64,000 nt of DNA. Origin: Clavelina lepadiformis. Its lineage: Eukaryota > Chordata > Ascidiacea > Aplousobranchia > Clavelinidae. The notes below the pieces were generated by a model. That model was not told the origin of the DNA. It ran no database searches and worked only from the letters and a program-made list of their open reading frames with translations. Shown one piece after another: positions 908 through 64,000 of this stretch (the stretch's first letter is position 1; each line of letters opens with the position of its first letter). The DNA lies in assembly GCF_947623445.1 (NCBI RefSeq), contig NC_135247.1, positions 2,296,501-2,360,500 on the forward strand. Reading direction: 5' to 3'. The position numbers were made by a program, and so were the translations under genes.

Positions 908-2722
908 GATGCCCTCTTTGCTACAGCACAGTACTAAGTAGCGTGTCAAGACGATTGCCCAAACATTCCACAGCAAAACTTAGTTTGAAAAGGAAATTTA
1001 ATATTTTACTTCAGCACTTTACCAACTTGCAACTGAATATGGATACTGAATATGCAAATGTGAAATAAAAAAATATGCCAACTCTACAGTTACTTACGCA
1101 CTTTATTGATGAATGAACGTTACACTCTCGATTAAACGTATAAAGAGAGTGACATGTTTTTGCGTAACTCACATGTCATAAATACCATACGATATCTCAT
1201 ATTTCGCTATATAGAGAAAAACTTGTAATATCGTAATTTATTGTTTGCAAATTAAGAAATGAAAATCAGATGCAGTGCTTTAAAATCAGATGCAAAGTTT
1301 ATAAGAGTTTTGAAATTCGATATAGTGTATACTGTAGTAGTAACGCACAACATTTGAAAACATCTTAAACTAACAAACAACTAACAAAATCTAAACACTA
1401 TGTTTCTGCTAACCTCTACACTCGCTCAAATAACGCAATGTTTTTCTTCAGCAACTCAAATTGAAATTGCAATAACCTATAGCTTCCAGCAACGTTTTTT
1501 ATAAAATAACCAACTGCTAACAAAACTGTTTCAAACAGTTTGAAACAAACCTTTCAGTTTTGTCCAACCTATTCGAATTCTAAGTTTTCAGAAGTCTATT
1601 CGTGGAATAGATTCAATATTTATTTCCTTCTGTAGCTTCCTTCGTTAAACCATGTCTATCTATTGATGTAAGTAATTCTATACTTTTGTCTGTGACACGA
1701 ATAAAATATCAAGCTATCTTTTTTAATTGTTCACCAGATTCGACTATATCTGGTAACTTTCTCTGTCACAACAAACCTCTGAATGAATTTACGAATAACT
1801 TTTCAATAAACAGCAGTGTCAGTTCTTCAGTTATTGGTCAATGCAAGTAAGTTTGAGCTGTTTGACAGAGATAAAAAGCTTATAGCAGTGGACAAGTCCG
1901 ATTTTGTTTGTGATGTAAATTCCGGAATGCAGCAGTAAGAAAAATTATAACGTGCTTCTTGTAATGGGTTATTGCGAGTACGTGTATGTGTGACTTATTT
2001 TATTCTTTTCATCTGTTGTAGTACTTGTATTATTTACTCCACAGACTGTTAGTTCCTCTGAGACGTTATAGGGTCTCACTTCTATATGCTTTGTAGTTTG
2101 TACTGAGGAAAGCAGTTGGGTTTATTCTGTTTTTACACCATTTTGATTCAAAAATTATTTTGGCAGAATGTTTCTAGAAGAAAAAACAAAATTTTTCTTT
2201 AAGGTAGAAGATTTATACGTATGATAAAGAATTGCGTTTCATTATCCTATTCTCTTGTTACAATACAAAGAGGTAATTTACTTTACGTCCGCTTACGTTT
2301 GCAACACTTAAAGCAAAAAGCGGATACTGGGGCAGATACATCACGACATGTTCGCGTACAAAAGTATTACTAGTTGCCTAACCGGAGCTTACTATTCAAA
2401 ATTGTCGAAAATTTATATTCTAAACAAGCTTGCTCAGCATAACACTTCGCTGAACAACTCCAACAGTTCCCTGTACCTAAAAGTCGTTCAGCAATTTTGA
2501 TCCCATCTACACAACCTCGCCAAACCATACTGGGCAGTTTAATTAAAAAGTGGTTGCGTCGGACAACACTAATTTATCGCAACTATACACTCGTAAACAT
2601 GTTGAGTCTGACCACGCCACTTTGCCGTTCGTAGTCATTACTCATTCTGCAACCAAATTAAATCGGTAGTTACGGCCTAAATCGTCATTTTGCGCATTGT
2701 GGCAATGACCTGAGGCGCTACC
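908..2722. other. 5' flank of FUT copy A, no gene seen
   Basis: I see no convincing exon here. The stretch is paralogous to the flank of copy B (22945-24776) at a few percent divergence, and its part up to 2311 matches the flank of copy C (56727-58130). It holds the uninterrupted TTAA at 2308-2311 that is the empty-site counterpart of array 2, and it ends at the TTAA where array 1 is inserted. The short ORFs in it are not conserved as coding. Confidence 0.7.
1088..1178. repeat. Nested short inverted repeats
   Basis: CACTCTC (1123-1129) pairs with GAGAGTG (1145-1151). TGACATGT (1150-1157) pairs with ACATGTCA (1171-1178). The outer arm AGTTAC..GCA pairs with TGCGTAACT. The group recurs upstream of copies B (about 23130-23220) and C (about 56907-56997), about 0.2 kb upstream of the start codon. 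It could be a small decayed hairpin element or a transcribed stem; nothing in the sequence decides. Confidence 0.45.
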
Positions 2723-2726
2723 TTAA

Positions 2727-3177
2727 GGGGTCATGACCCATTTCAACGAGATAGGCTTTTCAATGCAAAGTACATTAAATCAAGACGCTACTGTCGCAAA
2801 TTCACATCATAAACCTACACTGAATTTTGGCTTGCAACGACATCTAGGTTATGACTGTCTACAGTCTTAATTTGGACAAAATCCATGTACTCAGTTTTCC
2901 ATAACAGCTACCTAAACTTTACAGCAAGTTTTGAACTTAAAAATTTAGCACAAATACTCCTAAAAACCGAAAAATCAAACCCTCAAAAAATGTACAATTT
3001 AGCCTAAACCTGGAACCAGCTGTCGCCAAAACAACAACAAAACTAGTTCACATCGACGTCACATGCGCGTTGGACCGGAAAATTTCTTACTTTTTTTAAT
3101 ATGACGCATTGAGTACGAACACGTAATAATCACTGTGTTGCCGGCTCAAAATTGTCTTTATGTAGGGTAGTGAGCCC
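2727..3177. repeat. 451-bp terminal repeat (MITE-like), first of seven in array 1
   Basis: It begins GGGGTCATGACCC, which contains the perfect 12-bp palindrome GGGTCATGACCC, and ends GTGAGCCC. It has its own 13-bp imperfect inverted ends, TTAA on the left and TTAT on the right, so it looks like a complete short nonautonomous element. Further copies start at 5211, 7695, 10179, 12663, 15147 and 17631. Only the last has TTAA on both sides. Confidence 0.85.
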
Positions 3178-3323
3178 TTATAGGGAATTTTTTAATCCGA
3201 CTGTCTAAGGTTAAAGACGCTTGCATTAGAACATACCAACTGAAAGTCCAACGTGCGCGAAAGATTGGCCATCTCTATCGAAAAGAGCTTGAATGTTTAT
3301 CAAATAGATCAAATTTACACTAT

Positions 3324-3337
3324 CCGCTAGATGGCGA
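3324..3337 (+). promoter_or_regulatory. CTCF-like motif, one per array unit
   Basis: CCGCTAGATGGCGA matches the consensus CCASYAGRKGGCRS at 12 of 14 positions. It repeats in the same orientation every 2484 bp through array 1, and in array 2 (first at 58728-58741). A motif match only; factor and binding are not shown. Confidence 0.25.
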
Positions 3338-3352
3338 TTAGAGCACAGACAT

Positions 3353-3382
3353 CCTTAATTGGTCAAAAGACATCAATTAAGG
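3353..3382. repeat. 30-bp inverted repeat in the array unit
   Basis: CCTTAATTG at the left pairs with CAATTAAGG at the right, with an inner GTC/GAC pairing around an AAAA loop. It occurs once in every unit of both arrays. Confidence 0.6.
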
Positions 3383-4290
3383 TTAAAATTCTGAACCAGC
3401 CACAAGTAATTTAGTCCCATTGAAAATCTATGCGCTGTGTACGACATGGCGAAACGCAGGAAGCCTGGAACAAGATTATAATTCAACAATACGCTAGCAG
3501 GATCTGGCAAAAAGGCGATTTTATGTGTTGCCAGATTATCTTAGGAGCGCTCGCAGGAAAGTCGTAGGAAGACGACGTCTAGCAGTAATATAGACAAGAC
3601 ACACCTACTGATAACATAAAAACTGCGATCGTATTTATTTCCGTTTTGTAAATCAACATGGAGCGCGACCTATGCCCTAGGGGAGAAGCTTGCCAAAGAT
3701 ATGCAAGGGATGGCTTGGTCGTTAACGTTCTGACAACGATTTAAAGGTTTTTAACGAATTTTCCAAGCAAATGCAATCAACTCAAGAACAACCAGTAACA
3801 CGTGAGACAAGCTGTGTCCATACCTTTCAATTCCTTGGTCGGCGTTTTCGAAAGCTTTGCATAGGTAAGTTCTTTACAAAAGAAGACACTAGCAGCGCGA
3901 TGAAAGCACGTTCGCGAAAAAAGTTTGCCATCCATTTTCATTCGAGGTTGTTTGCTCAGTACGAAGCCTGCATCGAAAATCACTTGAAAAGGATCTTCAA
4001 ACTGTGACAAGTCTGCTAAACAACGCAACAGAAGCTGTTTTAGCCGGCCTGCAAGATGATCACAGCGAATGAATGTCGACGGTTTTCTTTCGTTCGCCGT
4101 GGTAAACCGCGACCACTGTTATGGAACAACAACAAAATACGTCTTGTACTAAATGACAAATCATAATTGCTTTGCAAACAGACCGTTGCCAAATACTTCA
4201 ATCAATGAATTTTGGGTGTAATATGTTGAGGTAAAACCACCAAAAAATGCAAAAGTGTAAACGATACATTTTCGAAAACGCTGCCGACAG

Positions 4291-4301
4291 GCAGCCATTT
4301 T
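4291..4301 (-). promoter_or_regulatory. YY1-like motif, one per array unit
   Basis: On the minus strand AAAATGGCTGC fits AANATGGCNGC fully. It recurs in each unit of both arrays. Short motif, so chance occurrence is possible. Confidence 0.2.
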
Positions 4302-5210
4302 GAAAACACAATACCTGGTCGATTGCAGCTTGCAGCTTTATGTCGAAACAATGGTTTTGGTAGCGCCATCAGCAGTACCAATGGCTTGCGATGCATAGGG
4401 CTTTCGTTTACAGTCAGGCTTCCCAGCAACAAAATGGATGCAGTCGCTCGTCGAAGACGGAAATTCTGAAATAAAGGGCCATTGAAATAGCATGATTTAG
4501 GCGGAACAGTAGTAGAAACTTACAAAAATAACCATAGCAACTATTTTAGTACCTAATGCTCAGAGCCTGTAAAGGCAATTTTTAAAACATCATGGCCAAA
4601 ACAGTATTGATGATGGTTGCATCACTAACTTGAAATGTTCACGTCGGCTGGCTCTAAAATGAGGCGATATGGATCGACACAAAGCCGGAAATGACTTACT
4701 TGCAAATCACATGCAAGCGGTAAAATTGATTTATGTACTACTAGCATATATGTCAGTCAATGATCGCCCAGCCCCTGGCCGTCAAAGTTGATGCTACCAT
4801 TCCGTTATCGGTCATTGTGCTAATCCAGAGAGACAAGACTCGTTAGAAGCCAGCCGAACCATGTCCTTTCACTCCTTTGTTAAATTTTCTATCAGCTTTT
4901 TCATCGTTTGTCTGCGTACATTTTAATAAAATATTAGTGCTTTATGCTTTTATTAACTTAAAACGCATCCATTCTGTCAGAAAAATACGTACACTTCATT
5001 ATAGCACGAAAACAATAACTGTCCTACCAGTTTTGCAAATAAAATGAATAAACAAAGAACTAAACGCCGTTAAATACAAAAAAGCCAGCCAAAAGTATTT
5101 CTGGAAAGAGTGCAATCAAATTTTAGTTAATAGCCTAGCCCAAAGACAAGCTAGCAAGTTAAGTAAGCCTAAAAACTGAGTTTTACATTCATAATAAGTT
5201 TTTGGCTTAA

Positions 5211-7694
5211 GGGGTCATGACCCATTTCAACGAGATAGGCTTTTCAATGCAAAGTACATTAAATCAAGACGCTACTGTCGCAAATTCACATCATAAACCT
5301 ACACTGAATTTTGGCTTGCAACGACATCTAGGTTATGACTGTCTACAGTCTTAATTTGGACAAAATCCATGTACTCAGTTTTCCATAACAGCTACCTAAA
5401 CTTTACAGCAAGTTTTGAACTTAAAAATTTAGCACAAATACTCCTAAAAACCGAAAAATCAAACCCTCAAAAAATGTACAATTTAGCCTAAACCTGGAAC
5501 CAGCTGTCGCCAAAACAACAACAAAACTAGTTCACATCGACGTCACATGCGCGTTGGACCGGAAAATTTCTTACTTTTTTTAATATGACGCATTGAGTAC
5601 GAACACGTAATAATCACTGTGTTGCCGGCTCAAAATTGTCTTTATGTAGGGTAGTGAGCCCTTATAGGGAATTTTTTAATCCGACTGTCTAAGGTTAAAG
5701 ACGCTTGCATTAGAACATACCAACTGAAAGTCCAACGTGCGCGAAAGATTGGCCATCTCTATCGAAAAGAGCTTGAATGTTTATCAAATAGATCAAATTT
5801 ACACTATCCGCTAGATGGCGATTAGAGCACAGACATCCTTAATTGGTCAAAAGACATCAATTAAGGTTAAAATTCTGAACCAGCCACAAGTAATTTAGTC
5901 CCATTGAAAATCTATGCGCTGTGTACGACATGGCGAAACGCAGGAAGCCTGGAACAAGATTATAATTCAACAATACGCTAGCAGGATCTGGCAAAAAGGC
6001 GATTTTATGTGTTGCCAGATTATCTTAGGAGCGCTCGCAGGAAAGTCGTAGGAAGACGACGTCTAGCAGTAATATAGACAAGACACACCTACTGATAACA
6101 TAAAAACTGCGATCGTATTTATTTCCGTTTTGTAAATCAACATGGAGCGCGACCTATGCCCTAGGGGAGAAGCTTGCCAAAGATATGCAAGGGATGGCTT
6201 GGTCGTTAACGTTCTGACAACGATTTAAAGGTTTTTAACGAATTTTCCAAGCAAATGCAATCAACTCAAGAACAACCAGTAACACGTGAGACAAGCTGTG
6301 TCCATACCTTTCAATTCCTTGGTCGGCGTTTTCGAAAGCTTTGCATAGGTAAGTTCTTTACAAAAGAAGACACTAGCAGCGCGATGAAAGCACGTTCGCG
6401 AAAAAAGTTTGCCATCCATTTTCATTCGAGGTTGTTTGCTCAGTACGAAGCCTGCATCGAAAATCACTTGAAAAGGATCTTCAAACTGTGACAAGTCTGC
6501 TAAACAACGCAACAGAAGCTGTTTTAGCCGGCCTGCAAGATGATCACAGCGAATGAATGTCGACGGTTTTCTTTCGTTCGCCGTGGTAAACCGCGACCAC
6601 TGTTATGGAACAACAACAAAATACGTCTTGTACTAAATGACAAATCATAATTGCTTTGCAAACAGACCGTTGCCAAATACTTCAATCAATGAATTTTGGG
6701 TGTAATATGTTGAGGTAAAACCACCAAAAAATGCAAAAGTGTAAACGATACATTTTCGAAAACGCTGCCGACAGGCAGCCATTTTGAAAACACAATACCT
6801 GGTCGATTGCAGCTTGCAGCTTTATGTCGAAACAATGGTTTTGGTAGCGCCATCAGCAGTACCAATGGCTTGCGATGCATAGGGCTTTCGTTTACAGTCA
6901 GGCTTCCCAGCAACAAAATGGATGCAGTCGCTCGTCGAAGACGGAAATTCTGAAATAAAGGGCCATTGAAATAGCATGATTTAGGCGGAACAGTAGTAGA
7001 AACTTACAAAAATAACCATAGCAACTATTTTAGTACCTAATGCTCAGAGCCTGTAAAGGCAATTTTTAAAACATCATGGCCAAAACAGTATTGATGATGG
7101 TTGCATCACTAACTTGAAATGTTCACGTCGGCTGGCTCTAAAATGAGGCGATATGGATCGACACAAAGCCGGAAATGACTTACTTGCAAATCACATGCAA
7201 GCGGTAAAATTGATTTATGTACTACTAGCATATATGTCAGTCAATGATCGCCCAGCCCCTGGCCGTCAAAGTTGATGCTACCATTCCGTTATCGGTCATT
7301 GTGCTAATCCAGAGAGACAAGACTCGTTAGAAGCCAGCCGAACCATGTCCTTTCACTCCTTTGTTAAATTTTCTATCAGCTTTTTCATCGTTTGTCTGCG
7401 TACATTTTAATAAAATATTAGTGCTTTATGCTTTTATTAACTTAAAACGCATCCATTCTGTCAGAAAAATACGTACACTTCATTATAGCACGAAAACAAT
7501 AACTGTCCTACCAGTTTTGCAAATAAAATGAATAAACAAAGAACTAAACGCCGTTAAATACAAAAAAGCCAGCCAAAAGTATTTCTGGAAAGAGTGCAAT
7601 CAAATTTTAGTTAATAGCCTAGCCCAAAGACAAGCTAGCAAGTTAAGTAAGCCTAAAAACTGAGTTTTACATTCATAATAAGTTTTTGGCTTAA
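5211..7694. repeat. Array 1 unit 2
   Basis: Second 2484-bp unit, starting GGGGTCATGACCC after TTAA. Near-identical to unit 1. It carries G at 7274, as do units 1 and 4. Confidence 0.85.
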
Positions 7695-10178
7695 GGGGTC
7701 ATGACCCATTTCAACGAGATAGGCTTTTCAATGCAAAGTACATTAAATCAAGACGCTACTGTCGCAAATTCACATCATAAACCTACACTGAATTTTGGCT
7801 TGCAACGACATCTAGGTTATGACTGTCTACAGTCTTAATTTGGACAAAATCCATGTACTCAGTTTTCCATAACAGCTACCTAAACTTTACAGCAAGTTTT
7901 GAACTTAAAAATTTAGCACAAATACTCCTAAAAACCGAAAAATCAAACCCTCAAAAAATGTACAATTTAGCCTAAACCTGGAACCAGCTGTCGCCAAAAC
8001 AACAACAAAACTAGTTCACATCGACGTCACATGCGCGTTGGACCGGAAAATTTCTTACTTTTTTTAATATGACGCATTGAGTACGAACACGTAATAATCA
8101 CTGTGTTGCCGGCTCAAAATTGTCTTTATGTAGGGTAGTGAGCCCTTATAGGGAATTTTTTAATCCGACTGTCTAAGGTTAAAGACGCTTGCATTAGAAC
8201 ATACCAACTGAAAGTCCAACGTGCGCGAAAGATTGGCCATCTCTATCGAAAAGAGCTTGAATGTTTATCAAATAGATCAAATTTACACTATCCGCTAGAT
8301 GGCGATTAGAGCACAGACATCCTTAATTGGTCAAAAGACATCAATTAAGGTTAAAATTCTGAACCAGCCACAAGTAATTTAGTCCCATTGAAAATCTATG
8401 CGCTGTGTACGACATGGCGAAACGCAGGAAGCCTGGAACAAGATTATAATTCAACAATACGCTAGCAGGATCTGGCAAAAAGGCGATTTTATGTGTTGCC
8501 AGATTATCTTAGGAGCGCTCGCAGGAAAGTCGTAGGAAGACGACGTCTAGCAGTAATATAGACAAGACACACCTACTGATAACATAAAAACTGCGATCGT
8601 ATTTATTTCCGTTTTGTAAATCAACATGGAGCGCGACCTATGCCCTAGGGGAGAAGCTTGCCAAAGATATGCAAGGGATGGCTTGGTCGTTAACGTTCTG
8701 ACAACGATTTAAAGGTTTTTAACGAATTTTCCAAGCAAATGCAATCAACTCAAGAACAACCAGTAACACGTGAGACAAGCTGTGTCCATACCTTTCAATT
8801 CCTTGGTCGGCGTTTTCGAAAGCTTTGCATAGGTAAGTTCTTTACAAAAGAAGACACTAGCAGCGCGATGAAAGCACGTTCGCGAAAAAAGTTTGCCATC
8901 CATTTTCATTCGAGGTTGTTTGCTCAGTACGAAGCCTGCATCGAAAATCACTTGAAAAGGATCTTCAAACTGTGACAAGTCTGCTAAACAACGCAACAGA
9001 AGCTGTTTTAGCCGGCCTGCAAGATGATCACAGCGAATGAATGTCGACGGTTTTCTTTCGTTCGCCGTGGTAAACCGCGACCACTGTTATGGAACAACAA
9101 CAAAATACGTCTTGTACTAAATGACAAATCATAATTGCTTTGCAAACAGACCGTTGCCAAATACTTCAATCAATGAATTTTGGGTGTAATATGTTGAGGT
9201 AAAACCACCAAAAAATGCAAAAGTGTAAACGATACATTTTCGAAAACGCTGCCGACAGGCAGCCATTTTGAAAACACAATACCTGGTCGATTGCAGCTTG
9301 CAGCTTTATGTCGAAACAATGGTTTTGGTAGCGCCATCAGCAGTACCAATGGCTTGCGATGCATAGGGCTTTCGTTTACAGTCAGGCTTCCCAGCAACAA
9401 AATGGATGCAGTCGCTCGTCGAAGACGGAAATTCTGAAATAAAGGGCCATTGAAATAGCATGATTTAGGCGGAACAGTAGTAGAAACTTACAAAAATAAC
9501 CATAGCAACTATTTTAGTACCTAATGCTCAGAGCCTGTAAAGGCAATTTTTAAAACATCATGGCCAAAACAGTATTGATGATGGTTGCATCACTAACTTG
9601 AAATGTTCACGTCGGCTGGCTCTAAAATGAGGCGATATGGATCGACACAAAGCCGGAAATGACTTACTTGCAAATCACATGCAAGCGGTAAAATTGATTT
9701 ATGTACTACTAGCATATATGTCAGTCAATGATCGCCCAGCCCCTGGCCGTCAAAGTTAATGCTACCATTCCGTTATCGGTCATTGTGCTAATCCAGAGAG
9801 ACAAGACTCGTTAGAAGCCAGCCGAACCATGTCCTTTCACTCCTTTGTTAAATTTTCTATCAGCTTTTTCATCGTTTGTCTGCGTACATTTTAATAAAAT
9901 ATTAGTGCTTTATGCTTTTATTAACTTAAAACGCATCCATTCTGTCAGAAAAATACGTACACTTCATTATAGCACGAAAACAATAACTGTCCTACCAGTT
10001 TTGCAAATAAAATGAATAAACAAAGAACTAAACGCCGTTAAATACAAAAAAGCCAGCCAAAAGTATTTCTGGAAAGAGTGCAATCAAATTTTAGTTAATA
10101 GCCTAGCCCAAAGACAAGCTAGCAAGTTAAGTAAGCCTAAAAACTGAGTTTTACATTCATAATAAGTTTTTGGCTTAA
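7695..10178. repeat. Array 1 unit 3
   Basis: Third unit. It carries A at 9758 (AAAGTTAATG) where units 1, 2 and 4 carry G, so the units are not exact copies. Confidence 0.85.
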
Positions 10179-12662
10179 GGGGTCATGACCCATTTCAACG
10201 AGATAGGCTTTTCAATGCAAAGTACATTAAATCAAGACGCTACTGTCGCAAATTCACATCATAAACCTACACTGAATTTTGGCTTGCAACGACATCTAGG
10301 TTATGACTGTCTACAGTCTTAATTTGGACAAAATCCATGTACTCAGTTTTCCATAACAGCTACCTAAACTTTACAGCAAGTTTTGAACTTAAAAATTTAG
10401 CACAAATACTCCTAAAAACCGAAAAATCAAACCCTCAAAAAATGTACAATTTAGCCTAAACCTGGAACCAGCTGTCGCCAAAACAACAACAAAACTAGTT
10501 CACATCGACGTCACATGCGCGTTGGACCGGAAAATTTCTTACTTTTTTTAATATGACGCATTGAGTACGAACACGTAATAATCACTGTGTTGCCGGCTCA
10601 AAATTGTCTTTATGTAGGGTAGTGAGCCCTTATAGGGAATTTTTTAATCCGACTGTCTAAGGTTAAAGACGCTTGCATTAGAACATACCAACTGAAAGTC
10701 CAACGTGCGCGAAAGATTGGCCATCTCTATCGAAAAGAGCTTGAATGTTTATCAAATAGATCAAATTTACACTATCCGCTAGATGGCGATTAGAGCACAG
10801 ACATCCTTAATTGGTCAAAAGACATCAATTAAGGTTAAAATTCTGAACCAGCCACAAGTAATTTAGTCCCATTGAAAATCTATGCGCTGTGTACGACATG
10901 GCGAAACGCAGGAAGCCTGGAACAAGATTATAATTCAACAATACGCTAGCAGGATCTGGCAAAAAGGCGATTTTATGTGTTGCCAGATTATCTTAGGAGC
11001 GCTCGCAGGAAAGTCGTAGGAAGACGACGTCTAGCAGTAATATAGACAAGACACACCTACTGATAACATAAAAACTGCGATCGTATTTATTTCCGTTTTG
11101 TAAATCAACATGGAGCGCGACCTATGCCCTAGGGGAGAAGCTTGCCAAAGATATGCAAGGGATGGCTTGGTCGTTAACGTTCTGACAACGATTTAAAGGT
11201 TTTTAACGAATTTTCCAAGCAAATGCAATCAACTCAAGAACAACCAGTAACACGTGAGACAAGCTGTGTCCATACCTTTCAATTCCTTGGTCGGCGTTTT
11301 CGAAAGCTTTGCATAGGTAAGTTCTTTACAAAAGAAGACACTAGCAGCGCGATGAAAGCACGTTCGCGAAAAAAGTTTGCCATCCATTTTCATTCGAGGT
11401 TGTTTGCTCAGTACGAAGCCTGCATCGAAAATCACTTGAAAAGGATCTTCAAACTGTGACAAGTCTGCTAAACAACGCAACAGAAGCTGTTTTAGCCGGC
11501 CTGCAAGATGATCACAGCGAATGAATGTCGACGGTTTTCTTTCGTTCGCCGTGGTAAACCGCGACCACTGTTATGGAACAACAACAAAATACGTCTTGTA
11601 CTAAATGACAAATCATAATTGCTTTGCAAACAGACCGTTGCCAAATACTTCAATCAATGAATTTTGGGTGTAATATGTTGAGGTAAAACCACCAAAAAAT
11701 GCAAAAGTGTAAACGATACATTTTCGAAAACGCTGCCGACAGGCAGCCATTTTGAAAACACAATACCTGGTCGATTGCAGCTTGCAGCTTTATGTCGAAA
11801 CAATGGTTTTGGTAGCGCCATCAGCAGTACCAATGGCTTGCGATGCATAGGGCTTTCGTTTACAGTCAGGCTTCCCAGCAACAAAATGGATGCAGTCGCT
11901 CGTCGAAGACGGAAATTCTGAAATAAAGGGCCATTGAAATAGCATGATTTAGGCGGAACAGTAGTAGAAACTTACAAAAATAACCATAGCAACTATTTTA
12001 GTACCTAATGCTCAGAGCCTGTAAAGGCAATTTTTAAAACATCATGGCCAAAACAGTATTGATGATGGTTGCATCACTAACTTGAAATGTTCACGTCGGC
12101 TGGCTCTAAAATGAGGCGATATGGATCGACACAAAGCCGGAAATGACTTACTTGCAAATCACATGCAAGCGGTAAAATTGATTTATGTACTACTAGCATA
12201 TATGTCAGTCAATGATCGCCCAGCCCCTGGCCGTCAAAGTTGATGCTACCATTCCGTTATCGGTCATTGTGCTAATCCAGAGAGACAAGACTCGTTAGAA
12301 GCCAGCCGAACCATGTCCTTTCACTCCTTTGTTAAATTTTCTATCAGCTTTTTCATCGTTTGTCTGCGTACATTTTAATAAAATATTAGTGCTTTATGCT
12401 TTTATTAACTTAAAACGCATCCATTCTGTCAGAAAAATACGTACACTTCATTATAGCACGAAAACAATAACTGTCCTACCAGTTTTGCAAATAAAATGAA
12501 TAAACAAAGAACTAAACGCCGTTAAATACAAAAAAGCCAGCCAAAAGTATTTCTGGAAAGAGTGCAATCAAATTTTAGTTAATAGCCTAGCCCAAAGACA
12601 AGCTAGCAAGTTAAGTAAGCCTAAAAACTGAGTTTTACATTCATAATAAGTTTTTGGCTTAA
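10179..12662. repeat. Array 1 unit 4
   Basis: Fourth unit, with G at 12242. It lies between two units with A at that place, so variant order along the array is G,G,A,G,A,A. Confidence 0.85.
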
Positions 12663-15146
12663 GGGGTCATGACCCATTTCAACGAGATAGGCTTTTCAAT
12701 GCAAAGTACATTAAATCAAGACGCTACTGTCGCAAATTCACATCATAAACCTACACTGAATTTTGGCTTGCAACGACATCTAGGTTATGACTGTCTACAG
12801 TCTTAATTTGGACAAAATCCATGTACTCAGTTTTCCATAACAGCTACCTAAACTTTACAGCAAGTTTTGAACTTAAAAATTTAGCACAAATACTCCTAAA
12901 AACCGAAAAATCAAACCCTCAAAAAATGTACAATTTAGCCTAAACCTGGAACCAGCTGTCGCCAAAACAACAACAAAACTAGTTCACATCGACGTCACAT
13001 GCGCGTTGGACCGGAAAATTTCTTACTTTTTTTAATATGACGCATTGAGTACGAACACGTAATAATCACTGTGTTGCCGGCTCAAAATTGTCTTTATGTA
13101 GGGTAGTGAGCCCTTATAGGGAATTTTTTAATCCGACTGTCTAAGGTTAAAGACGCTTGCATTAGAACATACCAACTGAAAGTCCAACGTGCGCGAAAGA
13201 TTGGCCATCTCTATCGAAAAGAGCTTGAATGTTTATCAAATAGATCAAATTTACACTATCCGCTAGATGGCGATTAGAGCACAGACATCCTTAATTGGTC
13301 AAAAGACATCAATTAAGGTTAAAATTCTGAACCAGCCACAAGTAATTTAGTCCCATTGAAAATCTATGCGCTGTGTACGACATGGCGAAACGCAGGAAGC
13401 CTGGAACAAGATTATAATTCAACAATACGCTAGCAGGATCTGGCAAAAAGGCGATTTTATGTGTTGCCAGATTATCTTAGGAGCGCTCGCAGGAAAGTCG
13501 TAGGAAGACGACGTCTAGCAGTAATATAGACAAGACACACCTACTGATAACATAAAAACTGCGATCGTATTTATTTCCGTTTTGTAAATCAACATGGAGC
13601 GCGACCTATGCCCTAGGGGAGAAGCTTGCCAAAGATATGCAAGGGATGGCTTGGTCGTTAACGTTCTGACAACGATTTAAAGGTTTTTAACGAATTTTCC
13701 AAGCAAATGCAATCAACTCAAGAACAACCAGTAACACGTGAGACAAGCTGTGTCCATACCTTTCAATTCCTTGGTCGGCGTTTTCGAAAGCTTTGCATAG
13801 GTAAGTTCTTTACAAAAGAAGACACTAGCAGCGCGATGAAAGCACGTTCGCGAAAAAAGTTTGCCATCCATTTTCATTCGAGGTTGTTTGCTCAGTACGA
13901 AGCCTGCATCGAAAATCACTTGAAAAGGATCTTCAAACTGTGACAAGTCTGCTAAACAACGCAACAGAAGCTGTTTTAGCCGGCCTGCAAGATGATCACA
14001 GCGAATGAATGTCGACGGTTTTCTTTCGTTCGCCGTGGTAAACCGCGACCACTGTTATGGAACAACAACAAAATACGTCTTGTACTAAATGACAAATCAT
14101 AATTGCTTTGCAAACAGACCGTTGCCAAATACTTCAATCAATGAATTTTGGGTGTAATATGTTGAGGTAAAACCACCAAAAAATGCAAAAGTGTAAACGA
14201 TACATTTTCGAAAACGCTGCCGACAGGCAGCCATTTTGAAAACACAATACCTGGTCGATTGCAGCTTGCAGCTTTATGTCGAAACAATGGTTTTGGTAGC
14301 GCCATCAGCAGTACCAATGGCTTGCGATGCATAGGGCTTTCGTTTACAGTCAGGCTTCCCAGCAACAAAATGGATGCAGTCGCTCGTCGAAGACGGAAAT
14401 TCTGAAATAAAGGGCCATTGAAATAGCATGATTTAGGCGGAACAGTAGTAGAAACTTACAAAAATAACCATAGCAACTATTTTAGTACCTAATGCTCAGA
14501 GCCTGTAAAGGCAATTTTTAAAACATCATGGCCAAAACAGTATTGATGATGGTTGCATCACTAACTTGAAATGTTCACGTCGGCTGGCTCTAAAATGAGG
14601 CGATATGGATCGACACAAAGCCGGAAATGACTTACTTGCAAATCACATGCAAGCGGTAAAATTGATTTATGTACTACTAGCATATATGTCAGTCAATGAT
14701 CGCCCAGCCCCTGGCCGTCAAAGTTAATGCTACCATTCCGTTATCGGTCATTGTGCTAATCCAGAGAGACAAGACTCGTTAGAAGCCAGCCGAACCATGT
14801 CCTTTCACTCCTTTGTTAAATTTTCTATCAGCTTTTTCATCGTTTGTCTGCGTACATTTTAATAAAATATTAGTGCTTTATGCTTTTATTAACTTAAAAC
14901 GCATCCATTCTGTCAGAAAAATACGTACACTTCATTATAGCACGAAAACAATAACTGTCCTACCAGTTTTGCAAATAAAATGAATAAACAAAGAACTAAA
15001 CGCCGTTAAATACAAAAAAGCCAGCCAAAAGTATTTCTGGAAAGAGTGCAATCAAATTTTAGTTAATAGCCTAGCCCAAAGACAAGCTAGCAAGTTAAGT
15101 AAGCCTAAAAACTGAGTTTTACATTCATAATAAGTTTTTGGCTTAA
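12663..15146. repeat. Array 1 unit 5
   Basis: Fifth unit, with A at 14726. Otherwise near-identical to its neighbours. Confidence 0.85.
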
Positions 15147-17630
15147 GGGGTCATGACCCATTTCAACGAGATAGGCTTTTCAATGCAAAGTACATTAAAT
15201 CAAGACGCTACTGTCGCAAATTCACATCATAAACCTACACTGAATTTTGGCTTGCAACGACATCTAGGTTATGACTGTCTACAGTCTTAATTTGGACAAA
15301 ATCCATGTACTCAGTTTTCCATAACAGCTACCTAAACTTTACAGCAAGTTTTGAACTTAAAAATTTAGCACAAATACTCCTAAAAACCGAAAAATCAAAC
15401 CCTCAAAAAATGTACAATTTAGCCTAAACCTGGAACCAGCTGTCGCCAAAACAACAACAAAACTAGTTCACATCGACGTCACATGCGCGTTGGACCGGAA
15501 AATTTCTTACTTTTTTTAATATGACGCATTGAGTACGAACACGTAATAATCACTGTGTTGCCGGCTCAAAATTGTCTTTATGTAGGGTAGTGAGCCCTTA
15601 TAGGGAATTTTTTAATCCGACTGTCTAAGGTTAAAGACGCTTGCATTAGAACATACCAACTGAAAGTCCAACGTGCGCGAAAGATTGGCCATCTCTATCG
15701 AAAAGAGCTTGAATGTTTATCAAATAGATCAAATTTACACTATCCGCTAGATGGCGATTAGAGCACAGACATCCTTAATTGGTCAAAAGACATCAATTAA
15801 GGTTAAAATTCTGAACCAGCCACAAGTAATTTAGTCCCATTGAAAATCTATGCGCTGTGTACGACATGGCGAAACGCAGGAAGCCTGGAACAAGATTATA
15901 ATTCAACAATACGCTAGCAGGATCTGGCAAAAAGGCGATTTTATGTGTTGCCAGATTATCTTAGGAGCGCTCGCAGGAAAGTCGTAGGAAGACGACGTCT
16001 AGCAGTAATATAGACAAGACACACCTACTGATAACATAAAAACTGCGATCGTATTTATTTCCGTTTTGTAAATCAACATGGAGCGCGACCTATGCCCTAG
16101 GGGAGAAGCTTGCCAAAGATATGCAAGGGATGGCTTGGTCGTTAACGTTCTGACAACGATTTAAAGGTTTTTAACGAATTTTCCAAGCAAATGCAATCAA
16201 CTCAAGAACAACCAGTAACACGTGAGACAAGCTGTGTCCATACCTTTCAATTCCTTGGTCGGCGTTTTCGAAAGCTTTGCATAGGTAAGTTCTTTACAAA
16301 AGAAGACACTAGCAGCGCGATGAAAGCACGTTCGCGAAAAAAGTTTGCCATCCATTTTCATTCGAGGTTGTTTGCTCAGTACGAAGCCTGCATCGAAAAT
16401 CACTTGAAAAGGATCTTCAAACTGTGACAAGTCTGCTAAACAACGCAACAGAAGCTGTTTTAGCCGGCCTGCAAGATGATCACAGCGAATGAATGTCGAC
16501 GGTTTTCTTTCGTTCGCCGTGGTAAACCGCGACCACTGTTATGGAACAACAACAAAATACGTCTTGTACTAAATGACAAATCATAATTGCTTTGCAAACA
16601 GACCGTTGCCAAATACTTCAATCAATGAATTTTGGGTGTAATATGTTGAGGTAAAACCACCAAAAAATGCAAAAGTGTAAACGATACATTTTCGAAAACG
16701 CTGCCGACAGGCAGCCATTTTGAAAACACAATACCTGGTCGATTGCAGCTTGCAGCTTTATGTCGAAACAATGGTTTTGGTAGCGCCATCAGCAGTACCA
16801 ATGGCTTGCGATGCATAGGGCTTTCGTTTACAGTCAGGCTTCCCAGCAACAAAATGGATGCAGTCGCTCGTCGAAGACGGAAATTCTGAAATAAAGGGCC
16901 ATTGAAATAGCATGATTTAGGCGGAACAGTAGTAGAAACTTACAAAAATAACCATAGCAACTATTTTAGTACCTAATGCTCAGAGCCTGTAAAGGCAATT
17001 TTTAAAACATCATGGCCAAAACAGTATTGATGATGGTTGCATCACTAACTTGAAATGTTCACGTCGGCTGGCTCTAAAATGAGGCGATATGGATCGACAC
17101 AAAGCCGGAAATGACTTACTTGCAAATCACATGCAAGCGGTAAAATTGATTTATGTACTACTAGCATATATGTCAGTCAATGATCGCCCAGCCCCTGGCC
17201 GTCAAAGTTAATGCTACCATTCCGTTATCGGTCATTGTGCTAATCCAGAGAGACAAGACTCGTTAGAAGCCAGCCGAACCATGTCCTTTCACTCCTTTGT
17301 TAAATTTTCTATCAGCTTTTTCATCGTTTGTCTGCGTACATTTTAATAAAATATTAGTGCTTTATGCTTTTATTAACTTAAAACGCATCCATTCTGTCAG
17401 AAAAATACGTACACTTCATTATAGCACGAAAACAATAACTGTCCTACCAGTTTTGCAAATAAAATGAATAAACAAAGAACTAAACGCCGTTAAATACAAA
17501 AAAGCCAGCCAAAAGTATTTCTGGAAAGAGTGCAATCAAATTTTAGTTAATAGCCTAGCCCAAAGACAAGCTAGCAAGTTAAGTAAGCCTAAAAACTGAG
17601 TTTTACATTCATAATAAGTTTTTGGCTTAA
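15147..17630. repeat. Array 1 unit 6
   Basis: Sixth and last full unit, with A at 17210, followed by the lone closing terminal repeat. Confidence 0.85.
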
Positions 17631-18081
17631 GGGGTCATGACCCATTTCAACGAGATAGGCTTTTCAATGCAAAGTACATTAAATCAAGACGCTACTGTCG
17701 CAAATTCACATCATAAACCTACACTGAATTTTGGCTTGCAACGACATCTAGGTTATGACTGTCTACAGTCTTAATTTGGACAAAATCCATGTACTCAGTT
17801 TTCCATAACAGCTACCTAAACTTTACAGCAAGTTTTGAACTTAAAAATTTAGCACAAATACTCCTAAAAACCGAAAAATCAAACCCTCAAAAAATGTACA
17901 ATTTAGCCTAAACCTGGAACCAGCTGTCGCCAAAACAACAACAAAACTAGTTCACATCGACGTCACATGCGCGTTGGACCGGAAAATTTCTTACTTTTTT
18001 TAATATGACGCATTGAGTACGAACACGTAATAATCACTGTGTTGCCGGCTCAAAATTGTCTTTATGTAGGGTAGTGAGCCC
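17631..18081. repeat. Closing 451-bp terminal repeat of array 1
   Basis: Seventh terminal repeat. Unlike the six before it, its right side is TTAA (18082-18085), which is the target duplication, and the sequence then continues into flank shared with 24780 onward. Confidence 0.85.
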
Positions 18082-18115
18082 TTAACCACATTCTAATTGT
18101 GGAGCTTACAGTAGT

Positions 18116-22944: not shown

Positions 22945-24775
22945 GATGCTCTCTTTGCTACAGCACAGTACTAAGTAGCGTGTCAACTGTCAAGACGATT
23001 GCCCAAGCATTCCACAGCAAAACTTAGTCTAAAAAGGAAATTTGATATTTTACTTCAGCACTTTACCAACTTGCAACTGAATATGAATACTGAATATGCA
23101 AATATGAAATAAAAAAATATGCCAACTCTACAGTTACTTACGCGCTTTATTGATGAATGAACGTTACACTCTCGATTAAACGTATAAAGAGAGTGACATG
23201 TTTTTGCGTAACTCACATGTCATAAATACCATACGATATCTCATATTTCGCTATATGGAGAAAAACTTGTAATATCGTAATTTACTGTTTGCAAATTAAG
23301 AAATGAAAATCAGATGCAGTGTTTTAAAAATAAATGCAAAATTTATAAGAGTTTTGAAATTCGATATATACTGTAGTAGTAACACACAACATTTGAAAAC
23401 ATCTTAAACTAACAAACAACTAACAAAATCTAAACACTATGTTTCTGCTAACCTCTACACTCGCTCAAATAACGCAATGTTTTTCTTCAGCAACTCAAAT
23501 TGAAATTGCAATAAACCTATAGCTTCCAGCAACGTTTTTTTTATAAAATAACCAACTGCTAACAAAACTGTTTCAAACAGTTTCAAACAAACCTTTCAGT
23601 TTTGTCCAACCTATTCGAATTCTAAGTTTTCAGAAGTCTATTCGTTGAATAGATTCAATATTTATTTCCTTCTGTAGCTTCCTTCGTTAAACCATGTCTA
23701 TCTATTTATGTAAGTAATTCTATACTTTTGTCTGTGACACGAATAAAATGTCAAGCTATCTTTTTTAATTGTTCACCAGATTCGACTATATCTGGTAACT
23801 TTCTCTGTCACAACAAACCTCTGAATGAATTTACGAATAACTTTTCTATAAACAGCAGTGTCAGTTCTTCAGTTATTGGTCAATGCAAGTAAGTTTGAGC
23901 TGTTTGACAAAGATAAAAGCTTATAGCAGTGGACACGTCCGATTTTGTTTGTGATGTAATTTCCGGAATGCAGCGGTAAGAAAAATTATAACGTGCTTCT
24001 TGTAATGGGTTATTGCGATTACGTGTACGTGTGACTTATTTTATTCTTTTCATCTGTATTTGTATTTATCTGTATTCTAGTATTTGTATTATTTACTCCA
24101 CAGACTGTTAGTTCCTCTGAGACGTTATAGGATCTCACTTCTATGCTTAGTACTGAAGAAAGCAGTTGGGTTTATTCTGTTTTTATACCATTTTGATTCA
24201 AAAATTATTTTGGCAGAATGTTTCTAGAAGAAAAAACAAAATTTTTTCTTTAACGTAGAAGATTTATACGAACGATAAAGAATTGCGTTTCATTATCCTA
24301 TTCTCTTGTTACAATACAAAGAGGTGATTTACTTTGCGTCCGCTTACGTTTGCAACACTTACGGCAAAAAGCGGACATTGGGGCAGATACATCACGACAT
24401 GTTCGCGTACAAAAGTATTACTAGTTTCCTAACCGGAGCTTACTATTCAAAATTGTCGAAAATTTATGTTCTAAGCAAGCTTGCTCAGCATAACACTTCG
24501 CTGAACAACTCTAACAGTTCCCTGTACCTAAAAGTCGTTCAGCAATTCTGATCCCATCTACACAACCTCGCCAAACCGTGCTGGGCAGTTTAATTAAGCA
24601 GCGGCAGCGTCGGACAACAATAATTTATCGCTACTATATACTCATAAACATGTTGAGTCTGACCACGCCACTTTGCCGTTCGTAGTCATTACTCATTCTG
24701 CAACCAAATTAAATCGGTAGTTACGGCCTAAATCGTCATTTTGCGCATTGTGGCAATGACCTGAGGCGCTATCTT
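22945..24775. other. 5' flank of FUT copy B, no gene seen
   Basis: Paralogous to 908-2722 (A) and 56727-58126 (C). It lacks both array insertions: the array 2 site reads TTAC here (about 24358-24361), and the array 1 site is an intact TTAA (24776-24779). The ORFs in it are not supported as coding. Confidence 0.7.
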
Positions 24776-24779
24776 AACC
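24776..24779. other. Empty target site matching array 1
   Basis: GCGCTATC-TTAA-CCACATTC is uninterrupted here. At 2715-2726 and 18082-18093 the same flanks are split by array 1, with TTAA on both sides. This pair proves target choice and duplication for array 1. Confidence 0.9.
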
Positions 24780-58126: not shown

Positions 58127-61100
58127 TTAAGGGGTCCCTACCCTTTTCAAAGAGATAGGCTTTTCAATGCAAAGTACATTAAATCAAGACGCTACTGTCG
58201 CAAATTCACATCATAAACCTACACTGAATTTTGGCTTGCAATGTCATCTAGGTCAGGCCTGTCTGCAGTCTTAATTTGGACAAAATCCATGTACTCAGTT
58301 TTCTATAACAGCTACCTAAACTTTACAGCAAGTTTTGAACTTAAAAATTTAGCACAAATACTCCTAAAAACCGAAAAATCAAACCCTCAAAAAATGTACA
58401 ATTTAGCCTAAACCTGGAACCAGCTGTCGCCAAAACAACAACAAAACTAGTTCACATCGACGTCACATGCGCATTGGACCGGAAATTTTCTTACTTTTTT
58501 TAATATGACGCATTGAGTACGAACACGTAATAATCACTGTGTTGCCGGCTCAAAATTGTCTTTATATTGGGAAGTGAGCCCTTATAGGGAATTTTTTAAT
58601 CCGACTGTCTAAGGTTGAAGACGCTTGCATTAGAACATACCAACTGAAAGTCCAACGTGCGCGAAAGATTGGCCATCTCTATCGAAAAGAGCTTGAATGT
58701 TTATCAAATAGATCAAATTTACACTATCCGCTAGATGGCGATTAGAGCACAGACATCCTTAATTGGTCAAAAGACATCAATTAAGGTTAAAATTCTGAAC
58801 CAGCCACAAGTAATTTAGTCCCATTGAAAATCTATGCGTTGTGTACGACATGGCGAAACGCAGGAAGCCTGGAACAAGATTATAATTCAACAATACGCTA
58901 GCAGGATCTGGCAAAAAGGCGATTTTATGTGTTGCCAGATTATCTTAGGAGCGCTCGCAGGAAAGTCGTAGGAAGACGACGTCTAGCAGTAATATAGACA
59001 AGACACACCTACTGATAACATAAAAACTGCAATCGTATTTATTTCCGTTTTGTAAATCAACATGGAGCGCGACCTATGCCCTAGGGGAGAAGCTTGCCAA
59101 AGATATGCAAGGGATGGCTTGGTCGTTAACGTTCTGACAACGATTTAAAGGTTTTTAACGAATTTTCCAAGCAAATGCAATCAACTCAAGAACAACCAGT
59201 AACACGTGAGACAAGCTGTGTCCATACCTTTCAATTCCTTGGTCGGCGTTTTCGAAAGCTTTGCATAGGTAAGTTCTTTACAAAAGAAGACACTAGCAGC
59301 GCGATGAAAGCACGTTCGCGAAAAAAGTTTGCCATCCATTTTCAGTCGAGGTTGTTTGCTCAGTACGAAGCCTGCATCGAAAATCACTTGAAAAGGATCT
59401 TCAAACTGTGACAAGTCTGCTAAACAACACAACAGAAGCTGTTTTAGCCGGCCTGCAAGATGATCACAGCGAATGAATGTCGACGGTTTTCTTTCGTTCG
59501 CCGTGGTAAACCGCGACCACTGTTATGGAACAACAACAAAATACGTCTTGTACTAAATGACAAATCATAATTGCTTTGCAAACAGACCGTTGCCAAATAC
59601 TTCAATCAATGAATTTTGGGTGTAATATGTTGAGGTAAAACCACCAAAAAATGCAAAAGTGTAAACGATACATTTTCGAAAACGCTGCCGACAGGCAGCC
59701 ATTTTGAAAACACAATACCTGGTCGATTGCAGCTTGCAGCTTTATGTCGAAACAATGGTTTTGGTAGCGCCATCAGCAGTGCCAATGGCTTGCGATGCAT
59801 AGGGCTTTCGTTTACAGTCAGGCTTCCCAGCAACAAAATGGATGCAGTCGCTCGTCGAAGACGGAAATTCTGAAATAAAGGGCCATTGAAATAGCATGAT
59901 TTAGGCGGAACAGTAGTAGAAACTTACAAAAATAACCATAGCAACTATTTTAGTACCTAATGCTCAGAGTCTGTAAAGGCAATTTTTAAAACATCATGGC
60001 CAAAACAGTATTGATGATGGTTGCATCACTAACTTGAAATGTTCACGTCGGCTGGCTCTAAAATGAGGCGATATGGATCGACGCAAAGCCGGAAATGACT
60101 TACTTGCAAATCACATGCAAGCGGTAAAATTGATTTATGTACTACTAGCATATATGTCAGTCAATGATCGCCCAGCCCCTGGCCGTCAAAGTTGATGCTA
60201 CCATTCCGTTATCGGTCATTGTGCTAATCCAGAGAGACAAGACTCGTTAGAAGCCAGCCGAACCATGTCCTTTCACTCCTTTGTTAAATTTTCTATCAGC
60301 TTTTTCATCGTTTGTCTGCGTACATTTTAATAAAATATTAGTGCTTTATGCTTTTATTAACTTAAAACGCATCCATTCTGTCAGAAAAATACGTACACTT
60401 CATTATAGCACGAAAACTATAACTGTCCTACCAGTTTTGTAAATAAAATGAATAAACAAAGAACTAAACGCCGTTAAATACAAAAAAAGCCAGCCAAAAG
60501 TATTTCTGGAAAGTGTGCAATCAAATTTTAGTTAATAGCGTAGCCCAAAGACAAGCTAGCAAGTTAAGTAAGCCTAAAAACTGAGTTTTACATTCATAAT
60601 AAATTTTTGGCTTAAGGGGTCCCTACCCTTTTCAAAGAGATAGGCTTTTCAATGCAAAGTACATTAAATCAAGACGCTACTGTCGCAAATTCACATCATA
60701 AACCTACACTGAATTTTGGCTTGCAATGTCATCTAGGTCAGGCCTGTCTGCAGTCTTAATTTGGACAAAATCCATGTACTCAGTTTTCTATAACAGCTAC
60801 CTAAACTTTACAGCAAGTTTTGAACTTAAAAATTTAGCACAAATACTCCTAAAAACCGAAAAATCAAACCCTCAAAAAATGTACAATTTAGCCTAAACCT
60901 GGAACCAGCTGTCGCCAAAACAACAACAAAACTAGTTCACATCGACGTCACATGCGCATTGGACCGGAAATTTTCTTACTTTTTTTAATATGACGCATTG
61001 AGTACGAACACGTAATAATCACTGTGTTGCCGGCTCAAAATTGTCTTTATATTGGGAAGTGAGCCCTTATAGGGAATTTTTTAATCCGACTGTCTAAGGT

Positions 61101-64000
61101 TGAAGACGCTTGCATTAGAACATACCAACTGAAAGTCCAACGTGCGCGAAAGATTGGCCATCTCTATCGAAAAGAGCTTGAATGTTTATCAAATAGATCA
61201 AATTTACACTATCCGCTAGATGGCGATTAGAGCACAGACATCCTTAATTGGTCAAAAGACATCAATTAAGGTTAAAATTCTGAACCAGCCACAAGTAATT
61301 TAGTCCCATTGAAAATCTATGCGTTGTGTACGACATGGCGAAACGCAGGAAGCCTGGAACAAGATTATAATTCAACAATACGCTAGCAGGATCTGGCAAA
61401 AAGGCGATTTTATGTGTTGCCAGATTATCTTAGGAGCGCTCGCAGGAAAGTCGTAGGAAGACGACGTCTAGCAGTAATATAGACAAGACACACCTACTGA
61501 TAACATAAAAACTGCAATCGTATTTATTTCCGTTTTGTAAATCAACATGGAGCGCGACCTATGCCCTAGGGGAGAAGCTTGCCAAAGATATGCAAGGGAT
61601 GGCTTGGTCGTTAACGTTCTGACAACGATTTAAAGGTTTTTAACGAATTTTCCAAGCAAATGCAATCAACTCAAGAACAACCAGTAACACGTGAGACAAG
61701 CTGTGTCCATACCTTTCAATTCCTTGGTCGGCGTTTTCGAAAGCTTTGCATAGGTAAGTTCTTTACAAAAGAAGACACTAGCAGCGCGATGAAAGCACGT
61801 TCGCGAAAAAAGTTTGCCATCCATTTTCAGTCGAGGTTGTTTGCTCAGTACGAAGCCTGCATCGAAAATCACTTGAAAAGGATCTTCAAACTGTGACAAG
61901 TCTGCTAAACAACACAACAGAAGCTGTTTTAGCCGGCCTGCAAGATGATCACAGCGAATGAATGTCGACGGTTTTCTTTCGTTCGCCGTGGTAAACCGCG
62001 ACCACTGTTATGGAACAACAACAAAATACGTCTTGTACTAAATGACAAATCATAATTGCTTTGCAAACAGACCGTTGCCAAATACTTCAATCAATGAATT
62101 TTGGGTGTAATATGTTGAGGTAAAACCACCAAAAAATGCAAAAGTGTAAACGATACATTTTCGAAAACGCTGCCGACAGGCAGCCATTTTGAAAACACAA
62201 TACCTGGTCGATTGCAGCTTGCAGCTTTATGTCGAAACAATGGTTTTGGTAGCGCCATCAGCAGTGCCAATGGCTTGCGATGCATAGGGCTTTCGTTTAC
62301 AGTCAGGCTTCCCAGCAACAAAATGGATGCAGTCGCTCGTCGAAGACGGAAATTCTGAAATAAAGGGCCATTGAAATAGCATGATTTAGGCGGAACAGTA
62401 GTAGAAACTTACAAAAATAACCATAGCAACTATTTTAGTACCTAATGCTCAGAGTCTGTAAAGGCAATTTTTAAAACATCATGGCCAAAACAGTATTGAT
62501 GATGGTTGCATCACTAACTTGAAATGTTCACGTCGGCTGGCTCTAAAATGAGGCGATATGGATCGACGCAAAGCCGGAAATGACTTACTTGCAAATCACA
62601 TGCAAGCGGTAAAATTGATTTATGTACTACTAGCATATATGTCAGTCAATGATCGCCCAGCCCCTGGCCGTCAAAGTTGATGCTACCATTCCGTTATCGG
62701 TCATTGTGCTAATCCAGAGAGACAAGACTCGTTAGAAGCCAGCCGAACCATGTCCTTTCACTCCTTTGTTAAATTTTCTATCAGCTTTTTCATCGTTTGT
62801 CTGCGTACATTTTAATAAAATATTAGTGCTTTATGCTTTTATTAACTTAAAACGCATCCATTCTGTCAGAAAAATACGTACACTTCATTATAGCACGAAA
62901 ACTATAACTGTCCTACCAGTTTTGTAAATAAAATGAATAAACAAAGAACTAAACGCCGTTAAATACAAAAAAAGCCAGCCAAAAGTATTTCTGGAAAGTG
63001 TGCAATCAAATTTTAGTTAATAGCGTAGCCCAAAGACAAGCTAGCAAGTTAAGTAAGCCTAAAAACTGAGTTTTACATTCATAATAAATTTTTGGCTTAA
63101 GGGGTCCCTACCCTTTTCAAAGAGATAGGCTTTTCAATGCAAAGTACATTAAATCAAGACGCTACTGTCGCAAATTCACATCATAAACCTACACTGAATT
63201 TTGGCTTGCAATGTCATCTAGGTCAGGCCTGTCTGCAGTCTTAATTTGGACAAAATCCATGTACTCAGTTTTCTATAACAGCTACCTAAACTTTACAGCA
63301 AGTTTTGAACTTAAAAATTTAGCACAAATACTCCTAAAAACCGAAAAATCAAACCCTCAAAAAATGTACAATTTAGCCTAAACCTGGAACCAGCTGTCGC
63401 CAAAACAACAACAAAACTAGTTCACATCGACGTCACATGCGCATTGGACCGGAAATTTTCTTACTTTTTTTAATATGACGCATTGAGTACGAACACGTAA
63501 TAATCACTGTGTTGCCGGCTCAAAATTGTCTTTATATTGGGAAGTGAGCCCTTATAGGGAATTTTTTAATCCGACTGTCTAAGGTTGAAGACGCTTGCAT
63601 TAGAACATACCAACTGAAAGTCCAACGTGCGCGAAAGATTGGCCATCTCTATCGAAAAGAGCTTGAATGTTTATCAAATAGATCAAATTTACACTATCCG
63701 CTAGATGGCGATTAGAGCACAGACATCCTTAATTGGTCAAAAGACATCAATTAAGGTTAAAATTCTGAACCAGCCACAAGTAATTTAGTCCCATTGAAAA
63801 TCTATGCGTTGTGTACGACATGGCGAAACGCAGGAAGCCTGGAACAAGATTATAATTCAACAATACGCTAGCAGGATCTGGCAAAAAGGCGATTTTATGT
63901 GTTGCCAGATTATCTTAGGAGCGCTCGCAGGAAAGTCGTAGGAAGACGACGTCTAGCAGTAATATAGACAAGACACACCTACTGATAACATAAAAACTGC
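58127..64000. mobile_element. Array 2: second TTAA-flanked tandem composite element, cut by the window end
   Basis: It starts right after TTAA 58127-58130. Copy A has the same flank uninterrupted across TTAA at 2308-2311, so this is a separate insertion, 415 bp from the site used by array 1. Two full 2485-bp units (58131-60615, 60616-63100) and part of a third (63101-64000) are visible. Ends: GGGGTCCCTACCC at the left, and GGGCTCACTTCCC inward from each repeat's right edge. Units within this array are near-identical; against array 1 they show scattered changes, strongest in the terminal repeat. The right border and target duplication are outside the window. Confidence 0.82.
58131..58581. repeat. 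451-bp terminal repeat, first of array 2
   Basis: Same length as in array 1, but with a different subfamily end (GGGGTCCCTACCC; ATATTGGGAAGTGAGCCC at the right). It is followed by TTAT, as in array 1. Further copies start at 60616 and 63101. Confidence 0.85.

Follow-up and report, generated by a model that had tools for sequence, protein, structure and literature searches.

The tandem array at positions 2723 to 18085 of the window (the whole stretch of 64,000 nucleotides analyzed from the tunicate Clavelina lepadiformis) is almost certainly a non-autonomous KolobokP multimer, (LTDR-INT)6-LTDR, in which long terminal direct repeats (LTDRs) alternate with internal segments (INTs). This array, designated array A, goes back to a single insertion that duplicated its TTAA target. 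It is probable that a single unit was inserted and that LTDR-to-LTDR recombination subsequently expanded it in place, a process likely to have been started by a nuclease. Arrays of this kind are already known from KolobokP, described in 2022 by Kojima and Bao (Mob DNA 13:24, PMC9587614); relative to the main text of that paper, the tunicate host group is new.

Structure and borders of array A

The alternation of seven 451-bp repeats and six 2033-bp segments that the original prediction had placed at 2723-18085 was confirmed there exactly. The array consists of six 2484-bp units followed by a seventh 451-bp repeat, which is identical in sequence to the first (Table 1). The sole variable site among the six units lies at window position 4790 (coordinate of unit 1) and is G in units 1, 2, and 4 and A in units 3, 5, and 6. 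A search of this genome (209,060,895 bases in 95 contigs) gave at least 40 full-length matches to the 451-bp repeat and one 46-bp match among the matches listed, and chance was therefore excluded as the source of the array A repeats. The array escaped Tandem Repeats Finder, for which the longest period is 500.

The precise borders and TTAA duplication that had been proposed are supported by the matching flanks of array A and by a clean empty site in a paralogous flank, which reads GGCGCTATCTTAACCACATT with one TTAA. Past array B lies an additional copy of the flank, likewise empty at this site. Array B belongs to the same family and has a total of 3 INTs and 4 LTDRs, the INTs being mutually identical and the LTDRs likewise, with TTAA at its right flank. 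Window positions 1-2311 and 55820-58130 are identical 2311-bp segments, and arrays A and B occupy TTAA sites 416 bp apart in these two copies. Since the sites differ between the copies, both insertions look younger than the 2311-bp duplication, unless later homogenization has made the copies alike. The duplicated flanks that host the two arrays are those of a fucosyltransferase gene cluster: window positions 26456-52677 form a tandem array with a period of about 4565 bp, with units that contain an exon for a glycosyltransferase of family 10 (fucosyltransferase; one copy matched PF00852 at 3.1e-34).

Table 1. Coordinates of arrays A and B, their parts and empty sites (window positions), and of related insertions elsewhere in the genome. 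Each INT number was obtained by counting matches to the INT, the transposase, or the nuclease.
Feature	Position	Strand	Description
Left TTAA target-site copy, array A	2723..2726	.	
LTDR 1	2727..3177	+	451 bp; GGGG start, CCC end; short imperfect inverted ends
LTDRs 2-7, array A (starts)	5211, 7695, 10179, 12663, 15147, 17631		
INT 1	3178..5210	+	2033 bp; TTAT at start, TTAA at end
INTs 2-6, array A (starts)	5662, 8146, 10630, 13114, 15598		
Transposase remnant, INT 1	3726..4553	+	59% identity to C4 exon residues 57-344; 8 stops
LTDR 7, right end of array A	17631..18081	+	Identical to LTDR 1
Right TTAA target-site copy, array A	18082..18085	.	
Empty site of array A	24774..24777	.	Single TTAA in paralogous flank
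Array B	58127..64000	+	Same family as array A; left TTAA 58127-58130; continues past the window to C8:2362536
Empty site of array B	2308..2311	.	Single TTAA in array A flank, identical over 2311 bp
Window-family multimers, both ends	A, B, C2:17.85 Mb, C1:3.99 Mb, C4:23.96 Mb, C1:27.72 Mb		6, 3, 12, 4, 9, and 27 INTs, respectively
Second-family multimers, both ends	C5:14.56 Mb, C6:15.93 Mb, C2:2.19 Mb, C4:2.58 Mb		84, 21, 19, and 7 INTs, respectively
Inverted-LTDR insertion, two copies	L024 1866-4792; L025 1690-4616		Duplicated segment on C4 and C5

Assignment to KolobokP and coding relatives

According to PMC9587614, KolobokP elements are bounded by two direct LTDRs about 450 or 660 bp long, each with its own short terminal inverted repeats, have 5'-RR and YY-3' termini, and duplicate mostly TTAA. 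Their INT encodes a DDE transposase and, downstream and antisense, an I-PpoI-like His-Me nuclease, and they are described there as solo LTDRs, as (LTDR-INT)n-LTDR multimers, and with LTDR-less INT-INT junctions. In this genome, direct LTDRs of 451 bp were found in arrays A and B and at further loci. The LTDRs start with GG and end with CC, and their inverted ends are imperfect in the window family and match over 10 bp in the C5 family. The original prediction of Kolobok-type ends was accordingly borne out, and the right superfamily had been named.

A transposase gene with matching ends, which had been listed as something to look for, was located at C4:6.08 Mb. The unit there has a period of 4112, and its LTDR is 98% identical to that of the window family. 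Two exons match PF20700 (Mutator-like) at 2e-18 and 2.5e-16, with the D, CxxH, and E positions of the transposase placed by eye. On the opposite strand, downstream of the transposase, lies the nuclease P0003, which matches PF05551 above the cut-off (1.9e-8) and I-PpoI with an E value of 0.0029, the alignment running through the SH..H..E..N positions. From these matches, the coding INT on C4 is predicted to encode a transposase of DDE type along with, in antisense, an I-PpoI-type His-Me nuclease. PiggyBac was rejected as an assignment, as the transposase exons match PF20700 and there was no piggyBac model among the listed hits. A second coding family was observed at C1:2951300-2952300 (L049), with units 3598 bp apart, INT-INT joins without LTDR, and open transposase and nuclease frames.

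The window INT aligns with the 344-residue exon P0002 at C4:6.08 Mb with 59% identity and 8 in-frame stops, while the exon has no stops in any of the three C4 copies. The remnant recurs in every INT of array A. Judged by this alignment, the window INT represents a decayed version of a coding INT present elsewhere in the genome. The 2 kb had been taken for passenger DNA; this was not borne out, and the homology of the INT to the transposase exon of a coding relative rules out a composite of two elements around host DNA. The form had also been called unusual for a DNA transposon, and so it is, but it was already described in 2022 as KolobokP (PMC9587614).

Multimers, monomers, and solo LTDRs in the genome

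The ends of 12 multimers were examined. Matching 4-bp flanks were present at both ends in 10 of the 12, nine with TTAA and one, the C1:27.72 Mb array, with TAAA on both sides; the latter duplication is informative in itself. A single end was found for the other two, an array of at least 8 INTs at C4:22.19 Mb (the L062 piece did not reach the second end) and the array at C4:6.08 Mb, the last unit of which is truncated. The largest multimer, at C5:14557683-14722158 (ends L052 and L053), has 84 INTs, measures 164,468 bp from LTDR to LTDR, and is bounded by TTAA. Its relatives lie at C6:15.93, C2:2.19, and C4:2.58 Mb.

One-unit composites and single repeats at TTAA, both of which the original prediction had suggested looking for, were recovered. 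A monomer at C1:0.33 Mb, inside a segment present three times at 62,675-bp steps, has TTAA on both sides in the two copies read. Seven of nine solo LTDRs have TTAA on both sides, and the remaining two have TTAA/TAAT and TTTA/TTAA; this count omits LTDRs that are truncated or lie at the edge of an array (L042, L044, and L046) and those in tRNA arrays. One insertion has inverted LTDRs, with arms identical over 451 bp and TTAA on either side. Its two copies were deduced to be one event, since they lie in a shared duplicated segment that is 99.85% identical over 6825 bp.

Many transposase fragments of the KolobokP group are crowded into the first part of C1 (0.2-4.2 Mb). Tandem tRNA-Ser clusters (L035 and L036 at C2:2.05-2.11 Mb, L037 at C2:22.42 Mb, and L040 at C8:3.07 Mb), in which tRNA-Ser genes make up most of the 63 tRNA calls of the four loci, have a KolobokP-type LTDR built into their repeat unit, in the same position at each of the three sites. 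These arrays were considered as KolobokP cargo and rejected: among the LTDRs read at C2:2.05-2.11 Mb, the first and the last share their flanks with the inner ones, and the LTDR therefore sits inside the tRNA repeat. L014 and L032 were likewise rejected as LTDR-bounded arrays, being LTDRs within larger tandem duplications.

Tests for recombination in the LTDR and the INT

Units within one array are nearly identical, and arrays differ from each other. Arrays B and C4:23.96 are distinguished by one INT site, although the 3 and the 9 INTs score alike within their own array; on this evidence, each array probably descends from one unit. Across eight loci, which include two identical or near-identical pairs and so represent fewer than eight independent lineages, divergence was 0-9.1% for the LTDR and 0-3.2% for the INT. 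Further arrays were left out, their INT having been partly fetched or being too different. LTDR divergence exceeded INT divergence in 26/26 tested pairs, by a ratio of 1.7-6.4 (median, 3.4), these being the pairs out of 28 with at least four INT differences, with two near-identical pairs left out. Part of the LTDR excess could stem from older LTDR lineages that were brought together rather than from recent exchange.

The four-gamete test, applied to the eight loci, gave 129 incompatible pairs out of 703 informative ones in the LTDR, versus 3 out of 1485 in the INT. In 2000 random sets of 38 INT sites, there were never more than 3 incompatible pairs. Nine 451-bp INT windows were also examined, and no incompatible pair fell within any of them. 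For LTDR sites near each other, the incompatible fraction was 0.086, compared to 0.183 on permutation, and 0 of 2000 permutations were as low. Recombination predicts such an effect of distance and repeated mutation does not, and the former was therefore deduced for the LTDR; no distance effect on compatibility was present in the INT of the same eight loci. At least three exchanges are required for the eight LTDRs and at least eight for sixteen LTDRs. Between loci, the LTDRs are recombination mosaics, while the INTs look clonal.

Two candidates for the nuclease site were set aside. A conserved LTDR core was not significant, as 654 of 2000 permutations were as high. The I-PpoI site has a TTAA core, and the assignment of the INT-LTDR junction, with its TTAA, as the site is speculation; a C precedes the TTAA at the junctions read and also at some outer flanks, those of arrays A and B included.

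The LTDR as a module at unit junctions

The 83 spacings of the 84-INT array were 2110 (48 times), 1657 (31 times), and 2109, 2108, 2563, and 2482 (once each). One junction of each major class was read in this array, the 1657 junction being INT-TTAA-INT, without LTDR, and the 2110 junction being INT-TTAA-LTDR-TTCA-INT. One 2563 junction, read in the C4:2.58 Mb array, was INT-TTAA-LTDR-TTCA-LTDR-TTCA-INT. The junctions read in the second family therefore have 0, 1, or 2 copies of a module of LTDR plus TTCA (453 bp), and the composition of the remaining junctions was deduced from the spacing. A scan of the genome for LTDR-less junctions of the window family, made with one exact-match pattern that allowed a variable gap, gave 0 matches. 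In the 27-INT array, a 44-bp stretch exactly at the LTDR 3' end is missing from some INTs, which are mixed irregularly with full ones, the array length corresponding by arithmetic to 16 short and 11 full INTs.

The LTDR-less junctions of the 84-INT array are clustered, as if spread by copying between neighbors, with 27 runs versus 42.3 expected from shuffles (1 of 2000 as low). Clustering of variant junctions was absent from the 27-, 21-, and 19-INT arrays, and in the four arrays tested there were no repeated blocks of unit-type order beyond chance.

Origin of the array

The course that we favor for array A begins with the transposase of a coding copy, which would move one LTDR-INT-LTDR unit into a TTAA site. 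The array would then grow in place via recombination between LTDRs. The putative start is a cut by the nuclease in or at an LTDR, probably with repair from a sister or ectopic LTDR, and recombination focused on the LTDR would shuffle the array as well as expand it.

Growth in place is considered likelier than the insertion of a concatemer, in which an LTDR-INT circle would be copied head to tail and the product inserted by the transposase at TTAA through its outermost LTDR ends. We regard this second route as unlikely. It fits most of the facts on mechanism too: the arrays are uniform and LTDR-bounded, as copies of one circle would be, the gain or loss of LTDR plus 4 bp would be in keeping with circles that have a 4-bp spacer, and circular intermediates are discussed in PMC9587614. 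However, the irregular order of mixed unit types needs later exchange in place, with which a concatemer start is still compatible. Array A and the C2:17.85 Mb array show no differences in the unit compared and so cannot separate the two routes. Growth in place is also weakened by the result of 0 excised-LTDR junctions for the window family and by the confinement of neighbor clustering to the 84-INT array among those compared.

The identical units of these two arrays at unrelated sites, together with the precision of both borders, could also be explained if an existing genomic array had transposed as a block, the insertion as one unit that the original prediction had stated, but the borders fit the insertion of one unit with later expansion equally well. 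Furthermore, sister arrays are unequal in length (6 versus 12 and 3 versus 9 INTs) and share no multi-unit variant pattern, array A having both G and A where all 12 C2 INTs score G. Block transposition was deemed very improbable. An assembly artefact, with an inflated unit number or a misplaced array, is hardly credible in view of the irregular order of variant units, the QV of 67.4 reported for the published assembly (PMC10884593), and the ends predicted from the 84-INT array, which fell on LTDR plus TTAA at 6/6 places at three loci; exact unit numbers may be off.

An extension of the growth of array A in place is put forward tentatively. The element's own nuclease, of homing type, may make the LTDR an active hotspot of recombination. 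This would swap LTDR sequence between insertions at different loci, turn a single insertion into an array of satellite scale (84 units, 164 kb), and make LTDR plus 4 bp a mobile module at junctions. The LTDR signal itself is silent on what cuts, because solo LTDR copies provide more templates for exchange with or without a nuclease.

Relation to known systems and significance

The element shares with KolobokP as described in PMC9587614 an LTDR of about 450 bp with short inverted ends of its own, the INT, the termini, the TTAA target, a predicted DDE-type transposase and antisense I-PpoI-like nuclease in the coding relative, and the occurrence of solo LTDRs, multimers, and INT-INT junctions that lack an LTDR. 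It differs from the main text of that paper in its tunicate host (the hosts given there span seven phyla, with only Branchiostoma, the lancelets, among chordates) and in its 84-INT, 164-kb multimer, for which no such size is given there. LTDR mosaicism against a clonal INT, the double-LTDR junction, and the inverted-LTDR insertion also go beyond that main text. Other Kolobok lineages, by the description in PMC9587614, are alike in TTAA target and transposase superfamily, whereas long terminal direct repeats and a His-Me nuclease are unreported for them in that text. No second report of KolobokP was found among the literature matches listed.

Compared by description, Tetris of Drosophila virilis (PMC4079207) is, like array A, a DNA transposon linked with tandem repeats but is described as a foldback element. 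TRIM retrotransposon arrays, as cited in PMC9587614, are alike in having tandem units that share terminal repeats; they are retrotransposons, whereas the coding relative here has a predicted DDE-type transposase.

These data extend the range of KolobokP to tunicates and show a route from a DNA transposon to arrays of satellite size. Array growth through nuclease cutting at the LTDR was proposed, and called speculative, in PMC9587614. The marks of recombination, which lie in the LTDR and scarcely occur in the INT at these loci, constitute a pattern test of that proposal, and the genome makes it testable by offering coding copies, arrays of 1 to 84 units, and arrays in flanks free of differences. 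If the hotspot reading is true, KolobokP would amount to a DNA transposon equipped with a homing enzyme for its own multiplication in place.
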